NCBI RefSeq assembly: GCF_030538595.1
Contig: NZ_JAUNTS010000007.1
Location: forward strand, 62,001-126,000
Length of the DNA: 64,000 nucleotides
Origin: Kocuria sp.
GTDB taxonomy: Bacteria > Actinomycetota > Actinomycetes > Actinomycetales > Micrococcaceae
Direction: 5' to 3'
Below the pieces are notes generated by a model. The model searched no databases. It worked only from the letters and a program-made list of their open reading frames with translations, and was not told where the DNA came from. The translations under genes were made by a program, and so were the position numbers. Every line of letters begins with the position of its first letter. The stretch's first letter is position 1. Shown in pieces: positions 10,452 to 62,270 of the stretch.

Positions 10452-10973
10452 ATGTACCGAATCGCCACCGTGTGCACCGGCAACATCTGCCGTTCACCCA
10501 TGGCCGAGTTGGCTCTGCGCCGCGCCTTTGACCGGGCCGGTCTTGCAGATCACGTCACTGTCGACTCCGCCGGGATCTCCGATGAAGAGCACGGCAACCC
10601 CATTGATCCACGGGCCCAGCGCCTCCTGAAGCGGGAGGGGCTGAATCCCCATGGCCACCGCGCGCAGCAATTCACACCGCAGTGGTTCGGTGACCATGAC
10701 CTGATTTTGGCCATGGACACCCAGCACGCCCGTGCTCTGGCTTCCATGGCGCCCCACGACGACGACGCCCGCGGCAAGGTGCGCATGTACCGTTCCTTTG
10801 ATCCCGCCGTGGCAGATCTACCCGCCCGTGAACAAGGCATTGTTGACCCGTGGTACGGCAATGCCCAGGGCTTTGAGCAGACGTGGGAGATGGTGACCGG
10901 GGCGCTGGATGGAATCGTGGAGTACACGCGCCACGCGCTGGCGTCATCAGCCGGCACACAGCGGGAGGCCTGA
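10452..10973 (+). CDS. Low-molecular-weight protein tyrosine phosphatase
   Basis: The enzyme hydrolyses phosphotyrosine through a cysteinyl-phosphate intermediate. From ATG 10452 it has 173 residues. The P-loop is VCTGNICRSP with the CX5R motif at Cys8-Arg14, and the general acid is Asp132 in the IVDPWYG loop; both are intact. An alternative ATG lies three codons upstream without a better ribosome-binding site. The gene is divergent from the dnaK operon, and the P-loop kinase gene follows after 3 bp, so the two are probably co-transcribed. In actinobacteria such enzymes may act on capsule regulators or be exported; nothing here decides this. Confidence 0.93.
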   Translation: MYRIATVCTGNICRSPMAELALRRAFDRAGLADHVTVDSAGISDEEHGNPIDPRAQRLLKREGLNPHGHRAQQFTPQWFGDHDLILAMDTQHARALASMAPHDDDARGKVRMYRSFDPAVADLPAREQGIVDPWYGNAQGFEQTWEMVTGALDGIVEYTRHALASSAGTQREA

Positions 10974-51520: not shown

Positions 51521-52405
51521 TCAGCGGGATTCGCCTTCACGCGCCAAGACGTAGTCGTACACGGCTTCCTCACCCTCGCCGCCGTCGGTACGCGGTGTGG
51601 GGGCAAGCATGAGTTCGGGTTTGACTGCCGATGCAATGTCGTCCTCGTTGTGCGGATCACCCGGGAAGTACAGCTGCTGGGTCACCAGCTGATAGCCGGG
51701 AGCGTGCACCTTGATGTGAATGTGCGCCGGGCGCCACGCGTGCCATCCAGCTGCGGCAATGAGCTGACCACAGGCGCCGTCGGTGGGGATCTGGTAGGGC
51801 GCCGGGCGCATGGTGTTGATCTCAAAGTTGCCGTCCTGATCCGCCAGGACCACACCCCGGAAGAGCCACTTGGGCAGTTCGGGCGCGTACTGAGAGTAGA
51901 AGCCCAGTGCATCCGCGTGCCAGATTTCAATCACAGCATCCTTGATGGGCTCACCCGCGGTGTCTTTGAAGGAGCCCGTGAACTTCAAGGGGGTTCCGGA
52001 TTCGTCCTCACGCATTTCCAAAGTGGCCGGCGTGGACATCTCCGGCGCATTGGGGACGTAGTACGGACCTTCAATGGTGCCCACCGCTCCGGGGCGATCC
52101 ACGGAGTTGATGTCCTCGATGGTGTGCTCCAGCCAGACGTCCAGGAACAGGGGCCATTCACCGTCTGTGCCCACCTTGATCAGCCAGGCCTTCAGCGCGT
52201 TGTACTCGTCGTACGTCACGCTGTGCTTGACGGCCACGTCATTGATGGCCTGAATGACCTCACCCGCCAAGGCGGAAACCCGCTCCTGGGAGACCTCCAT
52301 CCCGTGCAACTTGCCGGATTCACTGAATCGCTGAGTGGCCAAGGTCCCGGCCTCAACGGCAGTGCCTTCATTCTCCTGCCGGGTATCGGTACTGGACTCG
52401 CTCAT
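51521..52405 (-). CDS. catA: Catechol 1,2-dioxygenase
   Basis: CatA cleaves catechol between its hydroxyls to cis,cis-muconate, using non-haem Fe(III). The 294-residue enzyme starts at ATG 52405 behind GGAGGAAGAC. The N-terminal helical dimer domain (about 35-105) leads to the intradiol signature segment IEIWHADALGFYSQYAPELP. Iron ligands are Tyr170, Tyr204 (PAPYQIPTDG), His228 and His230 (WRPAHIHIKVH), all present. It is transcribed away from benABCD, sharing a 274-bp regulatory region that contains a GTCAC/GTGAC dyad. This is the ring-opening step for benzoate-derived catechol. Confidence 0.96.
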   Translation of the reverse strand: MSESSTDTRQENEGTAVEAGTLATQRFSESGKLHGMEVSQERVSALAGEVIQAINDVAVKHSVTYDEYNALKAWLIKVGTDGEWPLFLDVWLEHTIEDINSVDRPGAVGTIEGPYYVPNAPEMSTPATLEMREDESGTPLKFTGSFKDTAGEPIKDAVIEIWHADALGFYSQYAPELPKWLFRGVVLADQDGNFEINTMRPAPYQIPTDGACGQLIAAAGWHAWRPAHIHIKVHAPGYQLVTQQLYFPGDPHNEDDIASAVKPELMLAPTPRTDGGEGEEAVYDYVLAREGESR

Positions 52406-52431
52406 GTCTTCCTCCGCGTGGTTGTCAGGTG

Positions 52432-52457
52432 AGGTCACTCTGGATCAATTGTGACCT
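52432..52457. promoter_or_regulatory. Inverted repeat in the catA-benA divergent region
   Basis: AGGTCAC (52432-52438) and GTGACCT (52451-52457) are perfect inverted halves separated by 12 bp, 27-52 bp upstream of the catA start. A LAL/LuxR (probable BenR) or the LysR protein encoded nearby could bind here. The rest of the 274-bp region is relatively AT-rich around 52497-52545, but no clear consensus promoter could be fixed for benA. Confidence 0.5.
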
Positions 52458-52679
52458 GAACTACATCGAGGCTACGGCGCAGATTCCCCCTCAGACAAAT
52501 ATCAATCAACGGTGATTTATGCACTAATCCACAATTTCCAACCCCCTTGGTACCCACTAGGTATTCACCTGATGTGCCGGGCATCACAGCCTTCCAGACT
52601 GTTCTCTCAACGGGCAACGATCCATGACCGAGCGACCTCGGCGCGGATACCAGCCACACATCTGGAACAAGGGGCAGAG

Positions 52680-54062
52680 ATGACCGAGAACCTGACGCAC
52701 CTGCGAGACGTACTCAACGACGCCGTCGTGGATGACCGCCACAACGGCGTCATCAAGGCCAAGCGGGAGATCTTCACGGATGAGGAGATCTTTGAGTTGG
52801 AGATGAAGTACATCTTTGAGGGCAACTGGATCTACCTTGCCCACGAGTCCCAGATTCCCAATGTGGGTGACTACTACACCACCTACATTGGCCGCTCCCC
52901 CGTGGTCATCACCCGGGACAAGGACGAAAACCTCAACTGCCTGATCAACGCGTGTGCCCACCGCGGTGCCATGCTGTGCCGGCGCAAGACCGACAACCGC
53001 ACCACTTTCACCTGCCCGTTCCACGGGTGGACTTTCCGCAACTCCGGCGAACTGCTCAAGGTCAAGGACAGCCGCAACGGTGCCTACCCGGAGTCCTTCA
53101 ACAAGGAGGGCTCCCACGACCTCACCAAGGTGGCGCGCTTTGAGTCCTACCGCGGTTTCCTGTTCGGCTCACTGAATCCGGATGTCAAACCGCTGGAGGA
53201 GCACCTGGGGGATGCCGCCAAGGTGCTGGATTCGATTGTGGACCAGTCCCCGGATGGGCTGGAAGTTCTCCGCGGAGCCTCCACCTACACCTTTGACGGC
53301 AACTGGAAGGTCCAGGCTGAGAACGGGGCCGATGGCTACCACGTGACCTCCGTGCACTGGAATTACGCCGCCACAACTTCCCGCCGCGCCTCCGGAGATT
53401 CCACCAACACCACCAAGGCCATGGACGCGGGCAAGTGGGGCAAACAAAAGGGTGGGTTCTACTCCTTTGAGCACGGTCATCTGCTGCTGTGGCAAGAATG
53501 GGGCAACCCGCAGGACCGCCCGCTGTGGGACCGCCGGGAGGAATTGGTGGAGAAGTACGGGGAGGAGATGGCCAACTTCATGGTCAACATCTCCCGCAAC
53601 CTGTGCCTGTACCCGAACGTCTACATCATGGATCAGTTCTCCTCCCAGATCCGCAAGTTCCGCCCCATCTCCGCGGACAAGACGGAGGTGGAGATCTACT
53701 GCATAGCTCCCAAGGGGGAATCCGCTGCCAACCGAGCCAACCGGATTCGCCAGTACGAAGACTTCTTCAACGCCTCCGGCATGGCCACCCCTGATGACCT
53801 GGAGGAGTTCCGCTCCTGCAACAAGACCTACTGGGCAGCCAGCGCCCCCTGGAATGACATGACCCGCGGCATGGAGCACGAAATCAAGGGCCCGGATGAG
53901 CAAGCCGCTGCCCTGGGCATGAACCGGGTTCTTGCCTCCGGGGTCAAGACCGAGGACGAAGGTCTCTACCCCATTCAGCACTCCTACTGGCACCAGGTCA
54001 TGGAGTCCGGGTTGCAGTCGGAGGAAACCGCCGCGGCCGACGACGTTGCCACCACCGCCTGA
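52680..54062 (+). CDS. benA: Benzoate 1,2-dioxygenase large (alpha) subunit
   Basis: BenA is the catalytic subunit of the ring-hydroxylating dioxygenase that turns benzoate into a cis-dihydrodiol. From ATG 52680 (AAGGGGC upstream) it has 460 residues. The Rieske [2Fe-2S] ligands are Cys92-x-His94 ([11 protein letters not shown]) and Cys112-x2-His115 ([11 protein letters not shown]). The mononuclear iron region starts with [17 protein letters not shown], with the conserved Asp and the two His. Length is normal. benB follows after 35 bp. No benzoate transporter or catC is in the window. Confidence 0.96.
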
Positions 54063-54097: not shown

Positions 54098-54640
54098 ATG
54101 ACTGACACCGCCGTTGAGCCCCAGACCAGCACTTTGATGAGTCTGGAGGACATTCAAGTTCTGGAAACCGTCCGCGCCTTCCTCCACCGTGAGGCCCGGC
54201 TGCTGGACGACCGGGATTTTGACGCCTGGATTGAGTGTTACCACCCGGACGCCGAGTACTGGATGCCGTCCTGGGACGTGGACGACACCTTGGTCTCCGA
54301 CCCCCAGACCGAGATCTCCCTGATCTATTACCCCAACCGGGGTGGTCTGGAAGACCGCGTGTTCCGTATCAAGACCGACCGGTCCTCGGCCACTTCCCTG
54401 CCGGAGCCGCGGCACAACCACAACCTCACGGACATTGAGGTCCTTGGCCGGGACGGGGACGTGGTCCACGTCCGTTACAACTGGCTGACCGGCTACTTCC
54501 GCTACAACACCAACATGTACTACTGGGGCTACGCGGAAGTGGACATTGACCTGAGCGGGCCGACCCTGCAGATCACCAAGAAAAAGATTGTTCTCAAGAA
54601 CGACTACATCCACCAGGTGATCGACGTCTACATGATCTGA
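54098..54640 (+). CDS. benB: Benzoate 1,2-dioxygenase small (beta) subunit
   Basis: The 180-residue subunit forms the structural alpha3-beta3 core of the dioxygenase. It has the NTF2-like fold typical of beta subunits: VRAFLHREARLLDDRDFDAW, CYHPDAEYWMPSWDVDD, RTDR-type segment and DVVHVRYNWLTGYFRYNTNM. ATG 54098 follows AAAGGAG. Between benB and benC is a 111-bp gap with a GC-rich leader that contains AGGAG before benC. Confidence 0.95.
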   Translation: MTDTAVEPQTSTLMSLEDIQVLETVRAFLHREARLLDDRDFDAWIECYHPDAEYWMPSWDVDDTLVSDPQTEISLIYYPNRGGLEDRVFRIKTDRSSATSLPEPRHNHNLTDIEVLGRDGDVVHVRYNWLTGYFRYNTNMYYWGYAEVDIDLSGPTLQITKKKIVLKNDYIHQVIDVYMI

Positions 54641-54751: not shown

Positions 54752-56365
54752 ATGGCACATCAAGTAGCACTGAACTTTGAAGACGGCGTCACCAAGGTCA
54801 TCCGAGTGGGTGATTTTGAGACCGTCATGGACGCGGCCTACAAGGCGCGGATCAACATTCCTTCCGATTGCCGCGACGGCGCCTGCGGCACGTGCAAGTC
54901 CTTCTGCGACTCCGGCTCTTTTGATCCGGGGGACTTTGTGGAGGACGCCATGACGGAGGAAGAACTGGAAAAGGGGTACCTGCTGACCTGTCAGGCTCTT
55001 CCGGAGTCGGACATGTCCATCAACATCCCGGGAACCTCTGAGGCAGCCAAAACCTCCGCCGCCTCCTTCACCTCCACCATCACCGCCCTGGACAAGCATT
55101 CCGATTCCACCATTTCCTTCACCCTGGATGTGGACAACCGCCATGACCTTGCTTTCCTGCCGGGTCAATACGTGAACATCAAGGTTCCGGGCACGCAGGA
55201 CATACGCTCCTACTCCATGTCCAGCGGACCCAACGTGGAGGCCGCTTCCTTCATGGTTCGCATCACCCCGCAGGGCGCCATGTCCGAGTATCTGCGTGAC
55301 CGTGCGGCGGTGGGCGACTCCATCGAGTTCTCCGGCCCCTACGGTTCTTTTTTCCTGCGTGAGCCCAAGCGCCCCCTCCTGTTGTTGGCCGGGGGCACCG
55401 GGTTGGCCCCGCTGGTCTCCATTCTGGAAAAGCTCGCGGAAAAAGATCCGGGTCAACCGGTCCATCTGATCTACGGGGTCACACACCAGGCCGACATAGT
55501 GGGTCTGGACTGGCTGACGGACTACGAATCGCGTTTGAGCCAGTTCACATGGGATCTGATTGCCTCCGAGCAAGGCACTTCCGCGCCGCACACCGGCTAC
55601 GTCACCCAGATCATTGCCCCGGAACACCTCAACGACGGCGACGTGGACATCTATCTGTGCGGACCCCCGCCCATGGTCAACGCCGTTTCATCCTGGCTGG
55701 ATGCTGAAGGTCTCCAGCCTGCGAACTTCTACTTTGAACGATTCGCCCCCAAGGACAAGACCGGTGGCGACGCCGAAACGGGTGCCCCCGTACCCGCTGC
55801 CACCGTGGCAGCCGAAGGCGAGCAGATCTCCGGGGCGGAAGCAGTGTCCTCCATGCAGACCGGGCGTCTGCAATTTGGAACTGCCGACACCGCAGCACAT
55901 CTGGATGCGCGTGCGGGACTGGAGAGCGCCGTCGTGCAGCTGATGATCACCAAGATCACCGACGAACAGCTCAACAACTGGGACCGGCTGGCCACTGAGG
56001 TGGACGCAACCGTGGAGGCTGGCAGGGTGAGCAACGCACGGGAGTTTGTGCGCACCAATTTTGCGTTCCACGAGTACCTGTTCACGGTGGCCAACAACCC
56101 CGTGCTGTTGGAGGCCTACCGCGGTCTGGACACCCAGGGGCAGATGTCTGCCACGATCCAGGACGGATCACCGATCTTTGAGTCCGTGGCGCGGGATCAT
56201 CACGATCTTGTGGCGGCTTTCAGGGCAAAGGACACGGCTCGGGCGTTGGAGATCGTTCAGGCGCACACCAACGCGGCCAAGGGCACCATGGAGGAAGCCG
56301 TGGTGGCGGTGGAAACCGGAACCATGCCCATGGTGACTCCCTCCGCGAACGGCCTGCGCTCATGA
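54752..56365 (+). CDS. benC: Benzoate dioxygenase reductase BenC fused to a C-terminal FCD domain
   Basis: The 537-residue protein starts at ATG 54752 (AGGAG site). Residues 1-95 are a plant-type [2Fe-2S] ferredoxin with Cys40, Cys45, Cys48 and Cys80. Residues 105-205 are the FAD domain (RSYSMSS at 152-158) and 208-335 the NADH domain (LLAGGTGLAP, CGPPPMV), ending in YFERF as normal BenC proteins do. After a linker rich in Pro, Ala and Glu (335-375) comes about 145 residues matching an FCD domain, the ligand-binding domain of GntR-type regulators: helices 385-415, FAFHEYLF (His440), ARDHHDLVAAFRAKDTARAL (His483/484) and AHTNAAK (His505), the usual metal-binding triad. No DNA-binding domain is present. 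benD overlaps the stop by 4 bp. The reductase call is secure; the role of the FCD part is unknown. Confidence 0.93.
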   Translation: MAHQVALNFEDGVTKVIRVGDFETVMDAAYKARINIPSDCRDGACGTCKSFCDSGSFDPGDFVEDAMTEEELEKGYLLTCQALPESDMSINIPGTSEAAKTSAASFTSTITALDKHSDSTISFTLDVDNRHDLAFLPGQYVNIKVPGTQDIRSYSMSSGPNVEAASFMVRITPQGAMSEYLRDRAAVGDSIEFSGPYGSFFLREPKRPLLLLAGGTGLAPLVSILEKLAEKDPGQPVHLIYGVTHQADIVGLDWLTDYESRLSQFTWDLIASEQGTSAPHTGYVTQIIAPEHLNDGDVDIYLCGPPPMVNAVSSWLDAEGLQPANFYFERFAPKDKTGGDAETGAPVPAATVAAEGEQISGAEAVSSMQTGRLQFGTADTAAHLDARAGLESAVVQLMITKITDEQLNNWDRLATEVDATVEAGRVSNAREFVRTNFAFHEYLFTVANNPVLLEAYRGLDTQGQMSATIQDGSPIFESVARDHHDLVAAFRAKDTARALEIVQAHTNAAKGTMEEAVVAVETGTMPMVTPSANGLRS

Positions 56366-57264
56366 CCGCCCAGGCACCGGCATCCACCACCGCCGGGGGC
56401 ACCGGAACCGATGTGTCCGGAATGCCCACCGTGACAGCCGACTCACAAACCCCGGCGCTGATCACACCGGGCAGATTTTCCGGCAAGGCCGTGGTGGTCA
56501 CCGGTGCTGCGCAGGGCATTGGCCGCGCGGTGGCCGAACGCATCACCGCAGAGGGCGGTGAAGTCCTGTTGGTGGACCGCTCCGAAGTGGTGGAGGACGT
56601 GGCCGCTGAGATCAACGATCGCGCCGCGCACACCGAAGGGTACGGCTACGCACTGCCCCTGGGCGGGGTTGACTTGGAAGACCCCGCCGGCTCACAGCAC
56701 TGTGTTGAGGTGGCGGTCAAGGAGTACGGACGGGTTGACGTGCTGATCAACAACGTGGGCGGCACCATCTGGGCCCGGCCGTTTCAGGAGTACGACGTCC
56801 AAAAGATCGACCGGGAAATCCGGCGCTCCCTGTTTCCCACGCTCTACGCCTGCCACGCCGTCTTGCCAGTGATGCTGGAGGCGGGGAGGGGAACCATTGT
56901 CAATGTCTCCTCCATTGCCACCGGCGGGATCAATCGTGTGCCCTACGCCGCTGCCAAGGGTGGGATCAACACCTTGACCAAAGCACTGGCCTTGGAGGTG
57001 GCCGAATACGGGGTCCGCGTGGTGGCAACGGCCCCCGGCGGCACCTTGGCCCCGCCACGCAAGGTCCAGCGCGGACCGGGCCCTGAAGGTGAGCGGGAGG
57101 AAGGCTGGTACCGGGCCATCGTGGAACAAACCGTGGAGTCCTCGTTCATGAAGCGCTACGGGACGTTGGCCGAACAGGCCGCTCCCATTGTTTTCCTGGC
57201 TTCTGATGAAGCCTCCTACATCACCGGCTCCGTCCTACCGGTGGGCGGTGGCGACCAGGGCTGA
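56362..57264 (+). CDS. benD: cis-Diol dehydrogenase (1,6-dihydroxycyclohexa-2,4-diene-1-carboxylate dehydrogenase)
   Basis: BenD oxidises and decarboxylates the benzoate cis-diol to catechol, producing NADH. The 300-residue short-chain dehydrogenase has the NAD site AVVVTGAAQGIGRAVAERI, the NNVGGT segment after beta4, the catalytic Ser in IVNVSSIATGG and YxxxK in VPYAAAKGG. A Thr/Ala/Pro-rich extension of about 45 residues precedes the fold. The ATG overlaps the benC stop (ATGA), so reductase and dehydrogenase are translated together. The LAL regulator starts 37 bp downstream in the same direction. Confidence 0.95.
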   Translation: MTAQAPASTTAGGTGTDVSGMPTVTADSQTPALITPGRFSGKAVVVTGAAQGIGRAVAERITAEGGEVLLVDRSEVVEDVAAEINDRAAHTEGYGYALPLGGVDLEDPAGSQHCVEVAVKEYGRVDVLINNVGGTIWARPFQEYDVQKIDREIRRSLFPTLYACHAVLPVMLEAGRGTIVNVSSIATGGINRVPYAAAKGGINTLTKALALEVAEYGVRVVATAPGGTLAPPRKVQRGPGPEGEREEGWYRAIVEQTVESSFMKRYGTLAEQAAPIVFLASDEASYITGSVLPVGGGDQG

Positions 57265-57301
57265 CATCGTGACACCTGTCCCGGTGGATACCATCTGGCT
57301 C

Positions 57302-60139
57302 ATGGCCGATGAAGCATCCGCGCAAGCACACAGCTACCCCATGGTGGGTCGTGATGCCCAAAAGGCAGCTCTGCGTGAGGTGTTCAAAGAGGTCAAGAAG
57401 GGGCATTGCCGCTCAGTGGTGCTCAGCGGTCCGCTGGGCAGCGGTAAGTCCAGGCTCCTGGAGGAGTTCCTGACGGAAATCGGCACCCGTTCCACCACGG
57501 TGCTCTCGATCATCGGGGACGAATGGGAATCCTCCCTCAACTTGGCCGGCTACACCCAGCTGATGTCAACGGCACCGCTGCGCAGCTCCAAGGGATTCGA
57601 CGGCGATGAGCAACCGCCGTCGAAAATCCATGCGGAACTGACCCCGGATCAAGCGGTCAAATACGCGCAGACCTTGCACATCCATCTGGAGCAACTGCAA
57701 CGCCGCGGCCCCGTTGTGGTGGCGGTGGATGACCTGCAATGGGTGGATGAGGCCACCTTGCGCATTCTGGTGTTCACGGCGCGGCGACTGCACGGCGCCA
57801 AGGTGATGTTCCTGTTCACCATGGACACCGAACGCGCTCAGAACCTTCCGGTGGGCGTGCTGGACCATGTGGCCTCGCACCAGATGCGCAAGGTGGTGCT
57901 GCCGCCATTGCCCGTGGAAGCCGTGGGCCAGCTGGGACGCCATCTGCTGGGCACGGATCTGGACGTGACCACGCTACGGAACCTGATTGAACACACCGGC
58001 GGCCTTCCGTTGCCGCTGGTGGAGCTGATGCAGGAGATTCCGCGGAACTCCTGGCAGGGCAAACTGCCGCAGCTTCCGCCCAGCCAGCGGGTCCGAGCCC
58101 GGGTCCGCTCCCAACTGGCCGGTGCCTCAGATCAACTGCTGGCGGTGGCTCAATCGGTTGCGGTACTGGGCGGTGGTGCCGAACTCCAGGCGGTGGCAGA
58201 ACTGGCGCGGGTCCCGGACGTCCTGGTGGCATTGGATGAAGGGCATGAACTTCAGCTCCTGGTCTTCACGGTGTCTCAGACCCGCAGTTCGGTGACCTTT
58301 GCCGACCCGGGAGCGGCACAAGCCGTTTATGACGCCATAGCGCCCACCGTGCGCATGAACCTGCACCGGACGGCCGCCGAGGTGGTCACCGACCCCGGTG
58401 TCCAGTTGAGTCACCGGGTGGCTGCCACCCCCGGACCGGATGCTCAGCTGGCGGATGCGCTGGAGGATTACGCCGCGCAGCAGGCCCGCGCCGGCGTATG
58501 GTCCGCAGTTGCCACGGCAATGTTGGCCGCCTCCCGGCTCTCCGCCCAGCCACGGCAGCATGATCTGCGGCTGCTGCATGCCGTGGACGCCATGATCGGT
58601 TCGGGTGATCTCACCCGTGCGGCCACCTATCTGAGCACCATCGAGTCCTTTCCGTCTTCACCCTTGCGTTCAGCGGTGTTGGGCTATCTGGCCGTGGTCA
58701 CGGGACAGTTCGCCAGCGCCAGAGCACACCTGGACATGGCCTGGCGCACGGTTCGTCCCGAACACGACGCCGTCACCGCAGCCCGCATTGCCCAACGGCA
58801 GATCCTGCACGGCCTGGCCAACTGGGACGGTGAGGCCATGCTGGAATGGGCCCAGCGCACCCGGGAACTGGTGGATCGTGCCGAACCAGTCTGGGTTGAA
58901 GCTGAGGCCATTCACGGGCTGGGGTTGTTTGCCAGCCAAGCTGTGGAAGAGGCGGATGCCATCTACCGCACCCGGATGGCAGAAGCAGCCGAAACCGCAC
59001 AAAAGCAGCGCATTCAGATGGGTTATGCCTGGTTTGCCCTGCGCACTGACGACGTCGAATCCGCTCACCTTCACTTTGAAGCCGCCATCCCCACCGAGTA
59101 CCGCGGAGGTTCGTTACGCATCTCCCTGTGGGCCGAAGCCTGGCTGGCCCGGTGCCAGCTGGTTCTGGGCGATTGGGATGCTGCGGCAGCCACGATTGCC
59201 CGCGCCTCCGTGCGTTTGGAGTCCTCCGGCATGCGGCTCATGCGTCCGCTGTTGTATTGGACGGCTGCCGAGCTTTATGCCATTCGCGGTGATTGGGACC
59301 GGGCCCAGCATTACGTCCAGCTGAGCACCGCACCCACGGATGGTTACCGGGCCATGGCTGTTCCATCCGCCTTGGCCCGCGCTCGGTACCATGAGGCGCG
59401 GGCGGACTACGAAAGCGCCTATGAGGCCATGTATCCGCTGCTGAGCACCGACCCGCAGACCCGCGAGCGCTCGTCGTTCTGGCCGTGGCAGGACACCATG
59501 GTCAATGTGCTGGTCATGACGGACCGGCTGGATGAGGCCCAGGAGTTTTTGGACCGTCACGTTGCCGCGCTCCCCGCCCATGCCGCCGACACGGACCGGG
59601 CGCGGATGGCTTGGGCCCGCGGGCGCCTGCAGGCAGCCCGCGGGGAGGCTGAGGAAGCTCGGCTCAGCTTTGAGCAAGCGCTGGAGCATCTGCATTCCCA
59701 CCACAGGCCATATTTGAAAGCCCGGATCTGCTTTGCCTACGGCCAGAGCATGCGCCGCGCTGGTAAACGCCGCCTGGCTTCTTCCATTCTGCGCACGGCG
59801 CGAGAACTCTATGTTGCCCTGGGCGCCACAACCTACGTGGCCCGTTGCGACCGTGAGTTGAAAGCTGCCGGCGTGGACACAGACGCCGGTGTGCTCGGCC
59901 ACGGATCAGGTACCGACGATCCCCCGTTGAGACAGCACCAGGACACCGTGCAATTGACGGCACAGGAACAAGCGGTGGCGCAGTTTGTGGCACAGGGGGC
60001 CACCAACAAAGAGGTGGCGCGCGCCCTGTTCATTGCGGAAAAGACCGTCCAGTATCACCTGACGCGGATCTACGGAAAGTACGGGATCCGCTCCCGTAGC
60101 GAGTTGGCCGCCCGCTACCGTTCTGTCCCTTCCCCGTGA
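57302..60139 (+). CDS. LAL-type LuxR-family regulator, probable BenR
   Basis: The 945-residue protein starts at ATG 57302 (GTG 57269 is an alternative). The N-terminal STAND-type ATPase has Walker A GPLGSGKSRLLEE (about 43-55) and Walker B VVVAVDDLQWVDEATLRILV. The long middle is helical and TPR-like (repeats such as AYESAYEAMYPLL). The last 65 residues are a LuxR helix-turn-helix: LTAQEQAVAQFVAQGATNKE, EKTVQYHLTRIYGKYGIRSR. A LuxR-family activator next to ben genes is known in corynebacteria. Being the last plus-strand gene, it is probably co-transcribed with benABCD and activates the ben and perhaps cat promoters on binding benzoate or muconate. Its stop codon lies within a 34-bp hairpin arm. 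Confidence 0.9.
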   Translation: MADEASAQAHSYPMVGRDAQKAALREVFKEVKKGHCRSVVLSGPLGSGKSRLLEEFLTEIGTRSTTVLSIIGDEWESSLNLAGYTQLMSTAPLRSSKGFDGDEQPPSKIHAELTPDQAVKYAQTLHIHLEQLQRRGPVVVAVDDLQWVDEATLRILVFTARRLHGAKVMFLFTMDTERAQNLPVGVLDHVASHQMRKVVLPPLPVEAVGQLGRHLLGTDLDVTTLRNLIEHTGGLPLPLVELMQEIPRNSWQGKLPQLPPSQRVRARVRSQLAGASDQLLAVAQSVAVLGGGAELQAVAELARVPDVLVALDEGHELQLLVFTVSQTRSSVTFADPGAAQAVYDAIAPTVRMNLHRTAAEVVTDPGVQLSHRVAATPGPDAQLADALEDYAAQQARAGVWSAVATAMLAASRLSAQPRQHDLRLLHAVDAMIGSGDLTRAATYLSTIESFPSSPLRSAVLGYLAVVTGQFASARAHLDMAWRTVRPEHDAVTAARIAQRQILHGLANWDGEAMLEWAQRTRELVDRAEPVWVEAEAIHGLGLFASQAVEEADAIYRTRMAEAAETAQKQRIQMGYAWFALRTDDVESAHLHFEAAIPTEYRGGSLRISLWAEAWLARCQLVLGDWDAAAATIARASVRLESSGMRLMRPLLYWTAAELYAIRGDWDRAQHYVQLSTAPTDGYRAMAVPSALARARYHEARADYESAYEAMYPLLSTDPQTRERSSFWPWQDTMVNVLVMTDRLDEAQEFLDRHVAALPAHAADTDRARMAWARGRLQAARGEAEEARLSFEQALEHLHSHHRPYLKARICFAYGQSMRRAGKRRLASSILRTARELYVALGATTYVARCDRELKAAGVDTDAGVLGHGSGTDDPPLRQHQDTVQLTAQEQAVAQFVAQGATNKEVARALFIAEKTVQYHLTRIYGKYGIRSRSELAARYRSVPSP

Positions 60140-60215: not shown

Positions 60216-61316
60216 TCAGTTCAAGCGGTAGTGCTCCAGCTTCTGCGGGTCGATCTCCGTTCCGGCACCGGGCACAGTGGGTACCGTGATGGCTCCGTCT
60301 GCAATCTGCAAAGGCTCCGCCAAGAGGTCATCGGTCATGTCCAGGAAGTTGGACAACTCCCCCGCCCGGCGGGATGTATGGGCCAGCGCAGCACCGAACA
60401 CCACGGAGGCAACGGTCCCCACCTGGGTGTCAATCTGATTGCCCACATACACATCCACTCCGGCGGCCTCCGCAAATGCCACCACCTTGGCGGATTCGGT
60501 GAAGCCCGTCCGGGCGGTTTTCACCGCCAGCATGGAGGCACCCCCGGTCAAGATTTCCCGGGCAGCTTCCCCCATATTGGGGGCTGATTCATCCGCCGTG
60601 ATGGGGATGGGGGAATTCTTCACCAGACGACGGCGCCCGGTCACCTCCCGGGCATCGTCCGGCTCCTCCAGGAAGGTCAGTCCCAGATCGGCAGTCTGCC
60701 GCAAGACTTCCGCCGCCTCATTGGCGCTCCACCCACGGTTGGCATCCATGTAGAGTTCAACCTCTTCACCCAGGCCATCCCGCAGAACGCGGGCAGCCTC
60801 TATGTCCAGGTGCAGGGGATGCCTGCCGGTCTTGAGTTTGAACGTGGTGATGCCGTATTGCTCGCGGAAGCTGCGGGCCAGGTCCAGCAGTTCTCCAGCC
60901 GGTTTGAACCCCAGCATGTGAGAGACCTTCATCCGGTCCGAATAACCACCCAGCAGTGCGCTGACGGGCTGCCCCAGAATCTTGCCGATGCAGTCCCACA
61001 TGGCAATGTCCACGGCACCTTTGGCACATTCGTTGTGGACCGTTCGCGCCATCACGGCCTGCGCCTTTTCCCGCTCAAAAACGTTGAGGCCCGTGAGCGC
61101 CGGAGCAAAAACATCCTCCACCACGGCCGCAATTGATTTCTGCGTCTCCCCGTAGGTGTAGGGCCGCGGGGGTGCATCCGCCCACCCGACCACGCCGTCG
61201 TCGGTGGTGATCTTGACCAGTACGTGATCGGCCACGTGCACGGCCCCGGAGGCAAAGTGCAGGGGGGTCCGGTAAGGGATGGAGTAGGCAATCGCCTCCA
61301 CGGCCGCAATCTTCAT
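60216..61316 (-). CDS. catB: Muconate cycloisomerase (enolase superfamily)
   Basis: CatB cyclises cis,cis-muconate to muconolactone. The 366-residue enzyme has the muconate-lactonising enzyme pattern: KxK at Lys160-x-Lys162 (ITTFKLKTGRH), metal ligands Asp191 (YMDANRGW), Glu217 (FLEEPDD) and Asp242 (ITADESAPN), and the opposite base Lys266 (MLAVKTARTGF). ATG 61316 has GAAAGG upstream. The context next to the ben and cat genes makes CatB more likely than a dipeptide epimerase or other MLE-family enzyme. catC is not next to it; the LysR gene comes 42 bp upstream. Confidence 0.88.
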   Translation of the reverse strand: MKIAAVEAIAYSIPYRTPLHFASGAVHVADHVLVKITTDDGVVGWADAPPRPYTYGETQKSIAAVVEDVFAPALTGLNVFEREKAQAVMARTVHNECAKGAVDIAMWDCIGKILGQPVSALLGGYSDRMKVSHMLGFKPAGELLDLARSFREQYGITTFKLKTGRHPLHLDIEAARVLRDGLGEEVELYMDANRGWSANEAAEVLRQTADLGLTFLEEPDDAREVTGRRRLVKNSPIPITADESAPNMGEAAREILTGGASMLAVKTARTGFTESAKVVAFAEAAGVDVYVGNQIDTQVGTVASVVFGAALAHTSRRAGELSNFLDMTDDLLAEPLQIADGAITVPTVPGAGTEIDPQKLEHYRLN

Positions 61317-61358: not shown

Positions 61359-62270
61359 TTATGGATTCAATACTGAATCTCCACTCAGAACATCCTGGGA
61401 AATATCAGTAGTGACCAGTGTGACGAAATTGGCCAGAAGTTGCGAGCGTTCTTCGCGTCTCCAGGCAATTGCCAGCTCAACTTCCGGGGCCTGCTCCAGC
61501 TCCCGATAGTGCACACCTTCCAGCTGAACTGCCCGCACGCTGGACGGCACCACCGCCACCCCGGCACCGGCCGCCACAAAGGACAGCACCGTGGAAGTTT
61601 CATGCGCAATGTGCGCCACTCGGTGTTTGAACCCCGCGCCCCGGCACAGTTCAACGGTTTGGCGGTACACCACGGACCCCGGCGGATAGGTGACAAACTG
61701 CTGGTCGGTCAGCTCCGGCATGGACACGGGACGGTCCTCAGCCAGCGGGCTGTGGGCAGGAATCGCCACCATCAGCGGCTCCCGCTGCATGATGCGATAC
61801 TCAATCTCTTGACTGGTCACGGGCGGCCGCAGGATGGCGGCGTCCAGACTGCGGTCCAGGAGCGCCGACTCCATGTCCGGGGTCAACATTTCTCCGTGCA
61901 GCTCCACATTCAGCCCCGGGTAGGCCACCCCAGCCGCCCGCACAATCCGTGGCATCACGCTGTAGGTGGCAGACCCGGAGAAGCCCACGCGCAGCACACC
62001 GGTGGCACCGGCCCCCACCTGATACACGTCAGCCTTGAGTGCTTCAACATCGTTGACAATCGCCCGGCCCCGCTCCAGCAGCAACTCACCGGCCGCCGTG
62101 AGATCCACACGACGAGTGGTGCGGTCAAAGAGCTTGACCCCCAGGTTCTCCTCCAGCTGCCGGATCTGCTGGGACAGCGGCGGCTGGGCAATGTGCAGAC
62201 GCTTGGCCGCACGACCGAAATGGCGTTCCTCCGCCACGGCAATGAAGTAGTTGAGTTGACGCAGATCCAC
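61359..62270 (-). CDS. LysR-type transcriptional regulator (BenM/CatR group)
   Basis: The 303-residue regulator starts at GTG 62270 (AAAGAGG upstream), 12 bp after the acyl-CoA ligase stop. The N-terminal helix-turn-helix is MDLRQLNYFIAVAEERHFGR, HIAQPPLSQQIRQLEENLGV, and the remaining 210 residues are the periplasmic-binding-like effector domain (VGFSGSATYSVMPRIVRAAG, AAGAGVAVVPSSV). It reads toward catB, which starts 42 bp later, instead of divergently as is usual for LysR genes. A GATTCA-N4-TGAATC dyad at 61364-61379 overlaps its 3' end, a possible site for controlling catB. The effector may be muconate. Confidence 0.9.
   Translation of the reverse strand: MDLRQLNYFIAVAEERHFGRAAKRLHIAQPPLSQQIRQLEENLGVKLFDRTTRRVDLTAAGELLLERGRAIVNDVEALKADVYQVGAGATGVLRVGFSGSATYSVMPRIVRAAGVAYPGLNVELHGEMLTPDMESALLDRSLDAAILRPPVTSQEIEYRIMQREPLMVAIPAHSPLAEDRPVSMPELTDQQFVTYPPGSVVYRQTVELCRGAGFKHRVAHIAHETSTVLSFVAAGAGVAVVPSSVRAVQLEGVHYRELEQAPEVELAIAWRREERSQLLANFVTLVTTDISQDVLSGDSVLNP
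61364..61379 (-). promoter_or_regulatory. GATTCA-N4-TGAATC dyad at the lysR/catB junction
   Basis: A perfect 6-bp inverted repeat with a 4-bp spacer lies 48-63 bp upstream of the catB start and overlaps the last codons of lysR. It contains ATTCAGTATTGAAT, which fits the T-N11-A pattern of LysR-type sites. No catB promoter could be fixed. Confidence 0.4.

Follow-up and report, generated by a model that had tools for sequence, protein, structure and literature searches.

In a window of 64,000 nucleotides from Kocuria sp. (contig NZ_JAUNTS010000007.1, positions 62,001 to 126,000), one gene of the benzoate (ben) locus, here called benC-FCD, encodes a full benzoate dioxygenase reductase (BenC) followed by a true FCD domain, as an earlier reading of the letters (the original prediction) had observed. 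In gene regulators this domain normally serves the binding of small acids; many soil bacteria carry it on this reductase. The FCD module is real and old, and its residues still equip it for a metal and a small acid. Its most likely role, put forward tentatively, would be a metal-dependent, carboxylate-binding and reductase-tuning one. The parts of the gene are as follows (pLDDT, predicted local distance difference test; FAD, flavin adenine dinucleotide; NAD, nicotinamide adenine dinucleotide).

54752..56365, + strand: benC-FCD gene, 537 amino acids, stop-free open frame, start consistent with aligned relatives
54752..55750, + strand: BenC reductase, residues 1-333, with 2Fe-2S ferredoxin, FAD-binding and NAD-binding domains (Pfam, NCBIfam)
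55751..55885, + strand: flexible linker, about residues 334-378, of low pLDDT, its length and sequence varying among relatives
55886..56296, + strand: FCD domain, about residues 379-515 (Pfam match at 384-507, model, solved folds)
55910..55912, + strand: codon of Arg387, a helix-1 Arg kept in 149/149 distinct BenC FCDs and 34/37 other FCDs
56057..56059, + strand: codon of Asn436, expected fourth metal ligand (Asn in 146 and Thr in 3 of the 149)
56069..56071, + strand: codon of His440, expected metal ligand (149/149)
56198..56200, + strand: codon of His483, expected metal ligand (149/149)
56264..56266, + strand: codon of His505, expected metal ligand (149/149)

Domain identity and the metal and ligand site

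The coordinates, frame and start originally given for the gene were right, with ATG at 54752 and the stop ending at 56365 (537 amino acids). Residues 3-333 scored 474.7 bits (NCBIfam NF040810, cut-off 430), which bore out the claim of a complete BenC, and the Pfam domains were in the order found in BenC (Fer2 at 9-84, FAD_binding_6 at 111-200 and NAD_binding_1 at 211-313). With benA and benB just upstream, the putative function of this part is the reduction of benzoate dioxygenase by reduced NAD (NADH). The linker, described as rich in Pro, Ala and Glu, kept that composition across 45 BenC-FCD linkers. In the full-length model, pLDDT fell below 50 at residues 38-47, 331-378 (the linker) and 528-537.

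The C-terminal part matched Pfam FCD (PF07729) over residues 384-507 with an E-value of 8e-17 and 62.3 bits against a gathering cut-off of 24.3. Predicted alone, it gave the all-helical FCD fold with a pLDDT of 94.1, and the nearest solved folds found by Foldseek were GntR-family regulators. The FCD identity is thus supported by Pfam, by a confident model and by solved structures, and neither of the two outcomes named in advance as counting against it (no Pfam FCD match or a predicted fold other than FCD) was observed. The protein was also correctly said to have no DNA-binding domain: that of GntR was absent from five Pfam families at E <= 10, and the N-terminal winged helix-turn-helix of the GntR family (FadR/VanR) was lacking, the N-terminal part being BenC.

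For the conservation of the site, 164 BenC FCD rows were used (80 from a motif scan and 84 from whole-protein searches), of which 149 were distinct in the core and 15 were repeats. Every FCD-bearing protein was included; the FCD was excised by a text pattern that included N436 and H440 in 115 of the 164 and by a profile in 49, and Arg387 and His505 were part of no search or excision pattern. The 37 comparison FCDs were presumed regulators, with L071, L218 and L220 (themselves BenC FCDs) and L073 (no readable sequence) excluded.

The Asp or Asn and three His of the metal-binding FCD subgroup were present as N436, H440, H483 and H505. In the original prediction H484 had been offered beside H483; its position was Leu in 113/164 relatives, so that H440, H483 and H505 stood and H484 did not. 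The Asn in place of Asp at 436 was indeed present, but it was not unusual: among the 37 other FCDs, 30 had the three His, and at the fourth position 22 carried Asp and 9 carried Asn, the nine coming from 7 genomes or records. A damaged metal site at Asn436 was ruled out, Asn being common among FCDs and present in solved Zn/Ni sites.

The FCD of Atu1419 has a Zn site of Asn and three His and is stabilised by metal, its melting temperature being 52.6 C but 34 C when the three His are missing (PMC7797058); the FCD of Ps5454 also has a metal site of Asn and three His (PMC7674646), and Zn or Ni is the metal of these solved sites (PMC7797058, PMC7674646). CitO is Ni-bound and requires Arg97 and His191 for citrate (PMC4746285), and in DgoR, R102 and the metal residues are required for galactonate. 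By its position, Arg387 is likely the equivalent of CitO R97 and DgoR R102. Because the metal and ligand site is intact and conserved, a binding role is likely, and the FCD of the window BenC probably still binds something.

Distribution and history of the module

The original prediction could not say how common the fusion is and suggested that longer BenC proteins may exist in other actinobacteria; they were found in many genomes of two actinobacterial families. When 295 genomes of the window's family were searched with the whole protein (E <= 1e-60), 64 had a match, and 44 of these were fused (match to residue 516 or beyond), 30 of which were read as proteins. For the second actinobacterial family, which includes Rhodococcoides and Gordonia, 301 genomes were searched (E <= 1e-80; two of the genomes recur among the named loci of the motif scan). 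Among the 101 with a match, 41 had BenC-FCD, 52 fitted BenC-FCD-BenD, 4 lacked the FCD (L194-L197) and 4 at contig ends were undecided. The 41 consisted of 35 with a match to residue 517 or beyond (FCD confirmed in 30, L157-L186) and 6 with a long linker and a confirmed FCD (L187-L192), and the 52 long frames were of 858-1394 amino acids, with the domains checked in three genomes (G591, G571, G862). Across the actinobacterial phylum, 7/396 genomes had a match (E <= 1e-50), in three cases solely via a different reductase fusion. In three genomes of the second family, chains of 845-881 amino acids (L046 5205-7817, L047 5576-8221 on the - strand and L048 5384-7921) join an AntC/BenC-like reductase (33-35% identity) to a FAD-dependent oxidoreductase/halogenase-like part, and no FCD was found in them.

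The motif scan of named genomes used patterns that held N436/H440 or H483, and the best 80 of at least 146 confirmed loci, ranked by similarity to one FCD, were taken. In these, reductase, FCD and BenD formed one chain in 80/80 and benA and benB matches lay within the locus in 80/80; since the loci were picked by site patterns and FCD similarity, they are an unfair sample of architecture share, site and FCD identity. The genera were Rhodococcus, Gordonia, Williamsia, Mycolicibacterium, Nocardioides, Pseudonocardia, Amycolatopsis, Saccharopolyspora, Geodermatophilus and others, and in Tsukamurella tyrosinosolvens BenC-FCD-BenD was on a plasmid. On five Paraburkholderia plasmids, the reductase and FCD were in a single chain with a cytochrome P450, of 929 amino acids from the annotated or first matching start:

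Reductase-FCD-P450 genes: L035 8001-10790; L037 6001-8790; L038 6001-8790; L064 and L065, ending at 10790

One of these chains scored 61.9 bits for FCD and 74.4 bits for P450 by Pfam, and no benA or benB match was found in the five loci (13-17 kilobases each). The chain is possibly a self-sufficient P450 of unusual layout, the design of which may be useful.

The linkers had features of their own. AGQ occurred in 152 copies in 69/84 long BenC-FCD-BenD linkers (mean 7.5 and maximum 16 in 500 shuffles, relatedness uncorrected), a short R-x-I/V-AGQ-like motif was present in up to four copies per linker (e.g. L104, L137), and a very long BenC-to-FCD linker was found in one genus (L187-L192, chains of 636-707 amino acids).

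In a tree of 69 BenC FCDs and 37 others, the BenC FCDs, Paraburkholderia included, formed one clade on one side of a branch with 100/100 support, although this tree has few columns, its comparison FCDs are on long branches and its bootstrap had not settled. The sampled BenD-fused FCDs and the unfused actinobacterial FCDs were two separate clades (99/95 and 96/79, respectively); a single joining of BenD is therefore simpler, and BenC-FCD as the leftover of a split BenC-FCD-BenD chain was rejected. In the reductase tree (94 rows, with L193 and L206 labelled short although contig-cut), FCD-bearing and FCD-less forms interleaved, so losses or transfers occurred. Here the Paraburkholderia reductases grouped with proteobacterial short BenC (100/98), which conflicts with the BenC FCDs forming one clade; either transfer of the module or ancient losses would account for this.

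The FCD is under purifying selection. Across nine pairs of relatives, the ratio of nonsynonymous to synonymous substitution rates (dN/dS) was 0.10-0.24 for the FCD, 0.03-0.17 for the reductase and 0.07-0.90 for the linker, with dS near or above 0.8, and so near saturation, in three of the pairs. Mean identities of reductase and FCD were 0.823 and 0.782, respectively, in 29 BenC-FCD loci of the second family, and 0.693 and 0.773, respectively, in the BenD-fused chains (the same best 80, chosen by FCD similarity).

Possible roles of the FCD

In the proposed mechanism, a complete VanR-type effector-binding domain would hang by a flexible linker on the benzoate dioxygenase reductase and hold one divalent metal via N436, H440, H483 and H505. 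Together with R387, the FCD would bind a pathway carboxylate, namely benzoate, the cis-diol made from it or muconate. Binding may shift how the FCD dimerises or where it sits, and this shift may tune electron transfer from the reductase to BenAB or the cooperation with BenD, which is in one chain with it in many relatives. The steps from the intact site to a bound acid and from there to altered electron flow are what we infer. A broader reading is that an electron-transfer enzyme acquired, in a single event, a regulator's effector domain as its working, metal-dependent acid sensor, through which a pathway acid directly sets the electron flow into an oxygenase, and that the same unit was joined to BenD in actinobacteria and to P450 in Paraburkholderia; as a whole this seems rather unlikely. 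If tuning is true, a conserved and intact regulator-type site on a reductase would mean that metabolites directly control the electron supply in benzoate degraders. The usual view of oxygenase systems is that control lies in gene expression and in the binding of substrate to the oxygenase.

Several results weigh against tuning. The dN/dS of the FCD was above that of the reductase in 7/9 pairs, equal in one and lower in one, and in the window's family (30 loci) the FCD evolved faster, with a mean identity of 0.586 versus 0.760 for the reductase. In 20 genomes of this family (25 rows, 13 of them read as loci), the match ran only to residue 332-356, with no FCD, and FCD-less BenC occurred in related, seemingly complete ben clusters. 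In the second family, L194 (genome G750) was cleanly FCD-less and nested among carriers (nearest fork 89/89, wider 100/97); at L194 4438-6731, BenC ends shortly after the start of the linker and runs straight into benD. By these absences the FCD is dispensable, which suits a regulator and an ornament as well. Moreover, the full-length model, with a predicted template modelling score of 0.52, had no firm contact between FCD and reductase, so that no gate was visible. The earlier interpretation, that the domain could gate electron flow by binding benzoate, muconate or metal, or control the oligomer state, was partly supported; the gating is putative, and assembly roles fit nearly as well.

Assembly alone is the next most likely role, though we rather doubt it. 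The metal would then merely lock the fold, and the FCD would pair reductases, together with BenD in the fused relatives, into a fixed oxygenase complex without any signal. This agrees with the pairs or tetramers formed by FCD regulators and the stabilisation of Atu1419 by metal (PMC7797058), with the linker being disordered in the model, and with the position of the FCD between two enzymes in all 80 of the motif-scan loci taken (best 80 of at least 146) and between reductase and P450 in 5/5 Paraburkholderia loci. It leaves the retention of Arg387 in 149/149 unexplained, though that Arg may be structural.

BenC consumes NADH and BenD makes it, and the FCD and its linkers might space the two enzymes for cofactor recycling, or the FCD might bind a separate BenD; we consider this improbable. 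The single BenC-FCD-BenD chains (80/80, again the best 80 of at least 146) speak for it, as do the gene ends next to a separate benD. Among 30 loci of the window's family, the last four bases of benC were CTGA (17 loci), GTGA (7) or ATGA (6), and among 36 loci of the second they were ATGA (28) or GTGA (8), so that an ending compatible with an overlapping ATG or GTG start of benD (ATGA/GTGA only) was present in 13/30 and 36/36, respectively (49/66 together; the actual benD start was inspected by eye in the window and L194 only). However, the partner in the Paraburkholderia chain is a P450 instead of BenD, and short benC also overlaps benD by four bases in at least 7/17 uncut short loci (L049, L050, L052, L058, L059, L195, L196).

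An old fusion lacking a role of its own, for which it might speak that several groups and some single genomes do without the FCD, is very improbable in view of the purifying selection, the intact site and the retention in two actinobacterial families and Paraburkholderia. The FCD as the missing regulator of the cluster was rejected: a relative of the LuxR-type regulator was found near benC both with and without the FCD, and therefore transcription control is unlikely as its job. A separate FCD gene near FCD-less benC was also rejected, as no stand-alone FCD gene was found in 19/19 such loci (open reading frames of at least 80 amino acids), a negative that is weak because the profile was tuned to BenC FCDs, the loci were of 5-13 kilobases and L193 and L206 were cut by contig ends. 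With three His, one Arg and naturally occurring proteins that either have or lack the FCD, the proposed tuning of the reductase is ready for direct test, and L194 is a natural domain-free form useful for comparison.

The ben locus and known systems

The neighbouring genes in the window are as follows.

52677..54062, + strand: benA, oxygenase large subunit, start inferred; as query, it matches the gene beside benC in relatives
54098..54640, + strand: benB, oxygenase small subunit; as query, it matches the gene beside benC in relatives
56362..57264, + strand: benD, cis-diol dehydrogenase, its start overlapping the benC stop; FCD-fused in other actinobacteria
57188..60139, + strand: large ATPase/LuxR-type regulator, downstream; open frame, kind from sequence reading, start provisional

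The benC-FCD gene lies 3' of benB, with an AGGAG stretch immediately 5' of its start, and its final four bases, ATGA, are shared with the benD start. Catechol 1,2-dioxygenase-, muconate cycloisomerase- and LysR-like genes, named from sequence reading, flank the ben genes at 51521-52438, 60216-61316 and 61359-62270, all on the - strand. The window's own genome had 11 FCD matches, of which benC-FCD was the only one inside the window.

NCBI-style annotation calls the relatives BenC, with the FCD unmentioned. In the accessible text on Rhodococcus sp. TG-1, the benC-xylZ of a benzoate cluster is named 'FCD domain-containing protein' and its expression under Fe3+ is reported, the domain itself being undiscussed there (PMC11858498), and a figure legend on Rhodococcus ruber Chol-4 gives benC as reductase/diol dehydrogenase (PMC6498646). 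A literature search, with few subscription papers within reach, found no study of FCD function in BenC. The original wording, a new kind of metabolite feedback, was too strong as far as the architecture goes, because an FCD-named Rhodococcus BenC is already in print (PMC11858498) and the form is widespread in many genomes.

Among solved structures, PDB 1KRH (benzoate 1,2-dioxygenase reductase), which we take to be the Acinetobacter BenC, aligned with window residues 3-332 across the whole reductase (E 2.7e-108); it has 338 amino acids, ends at the point where the linker of the window protein starts and is without an FCD. The second-best solved relative of the reductase part was PDB 5OGX ('Cytochrome P450 reductase'), presumably GcoB, which serves a P450 and, with 336 amino acids, has no FCD, whereas the Paraburkholderia relative unites reductase, FCD and P450. 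For the FCD, the top Foldseek rows were Atu1419 (PDB 6Z74, 6ZA0; 16-20% identity), a VanR-group regulator as is Ps5454 (PDB 3C7J). Unlike the window protein, Ps5454 is DNA-binding, and the FCD of Atu1419 is paired with a DNA-binding domain, whereas that of the window is paired with an electron-transfer enzyme.
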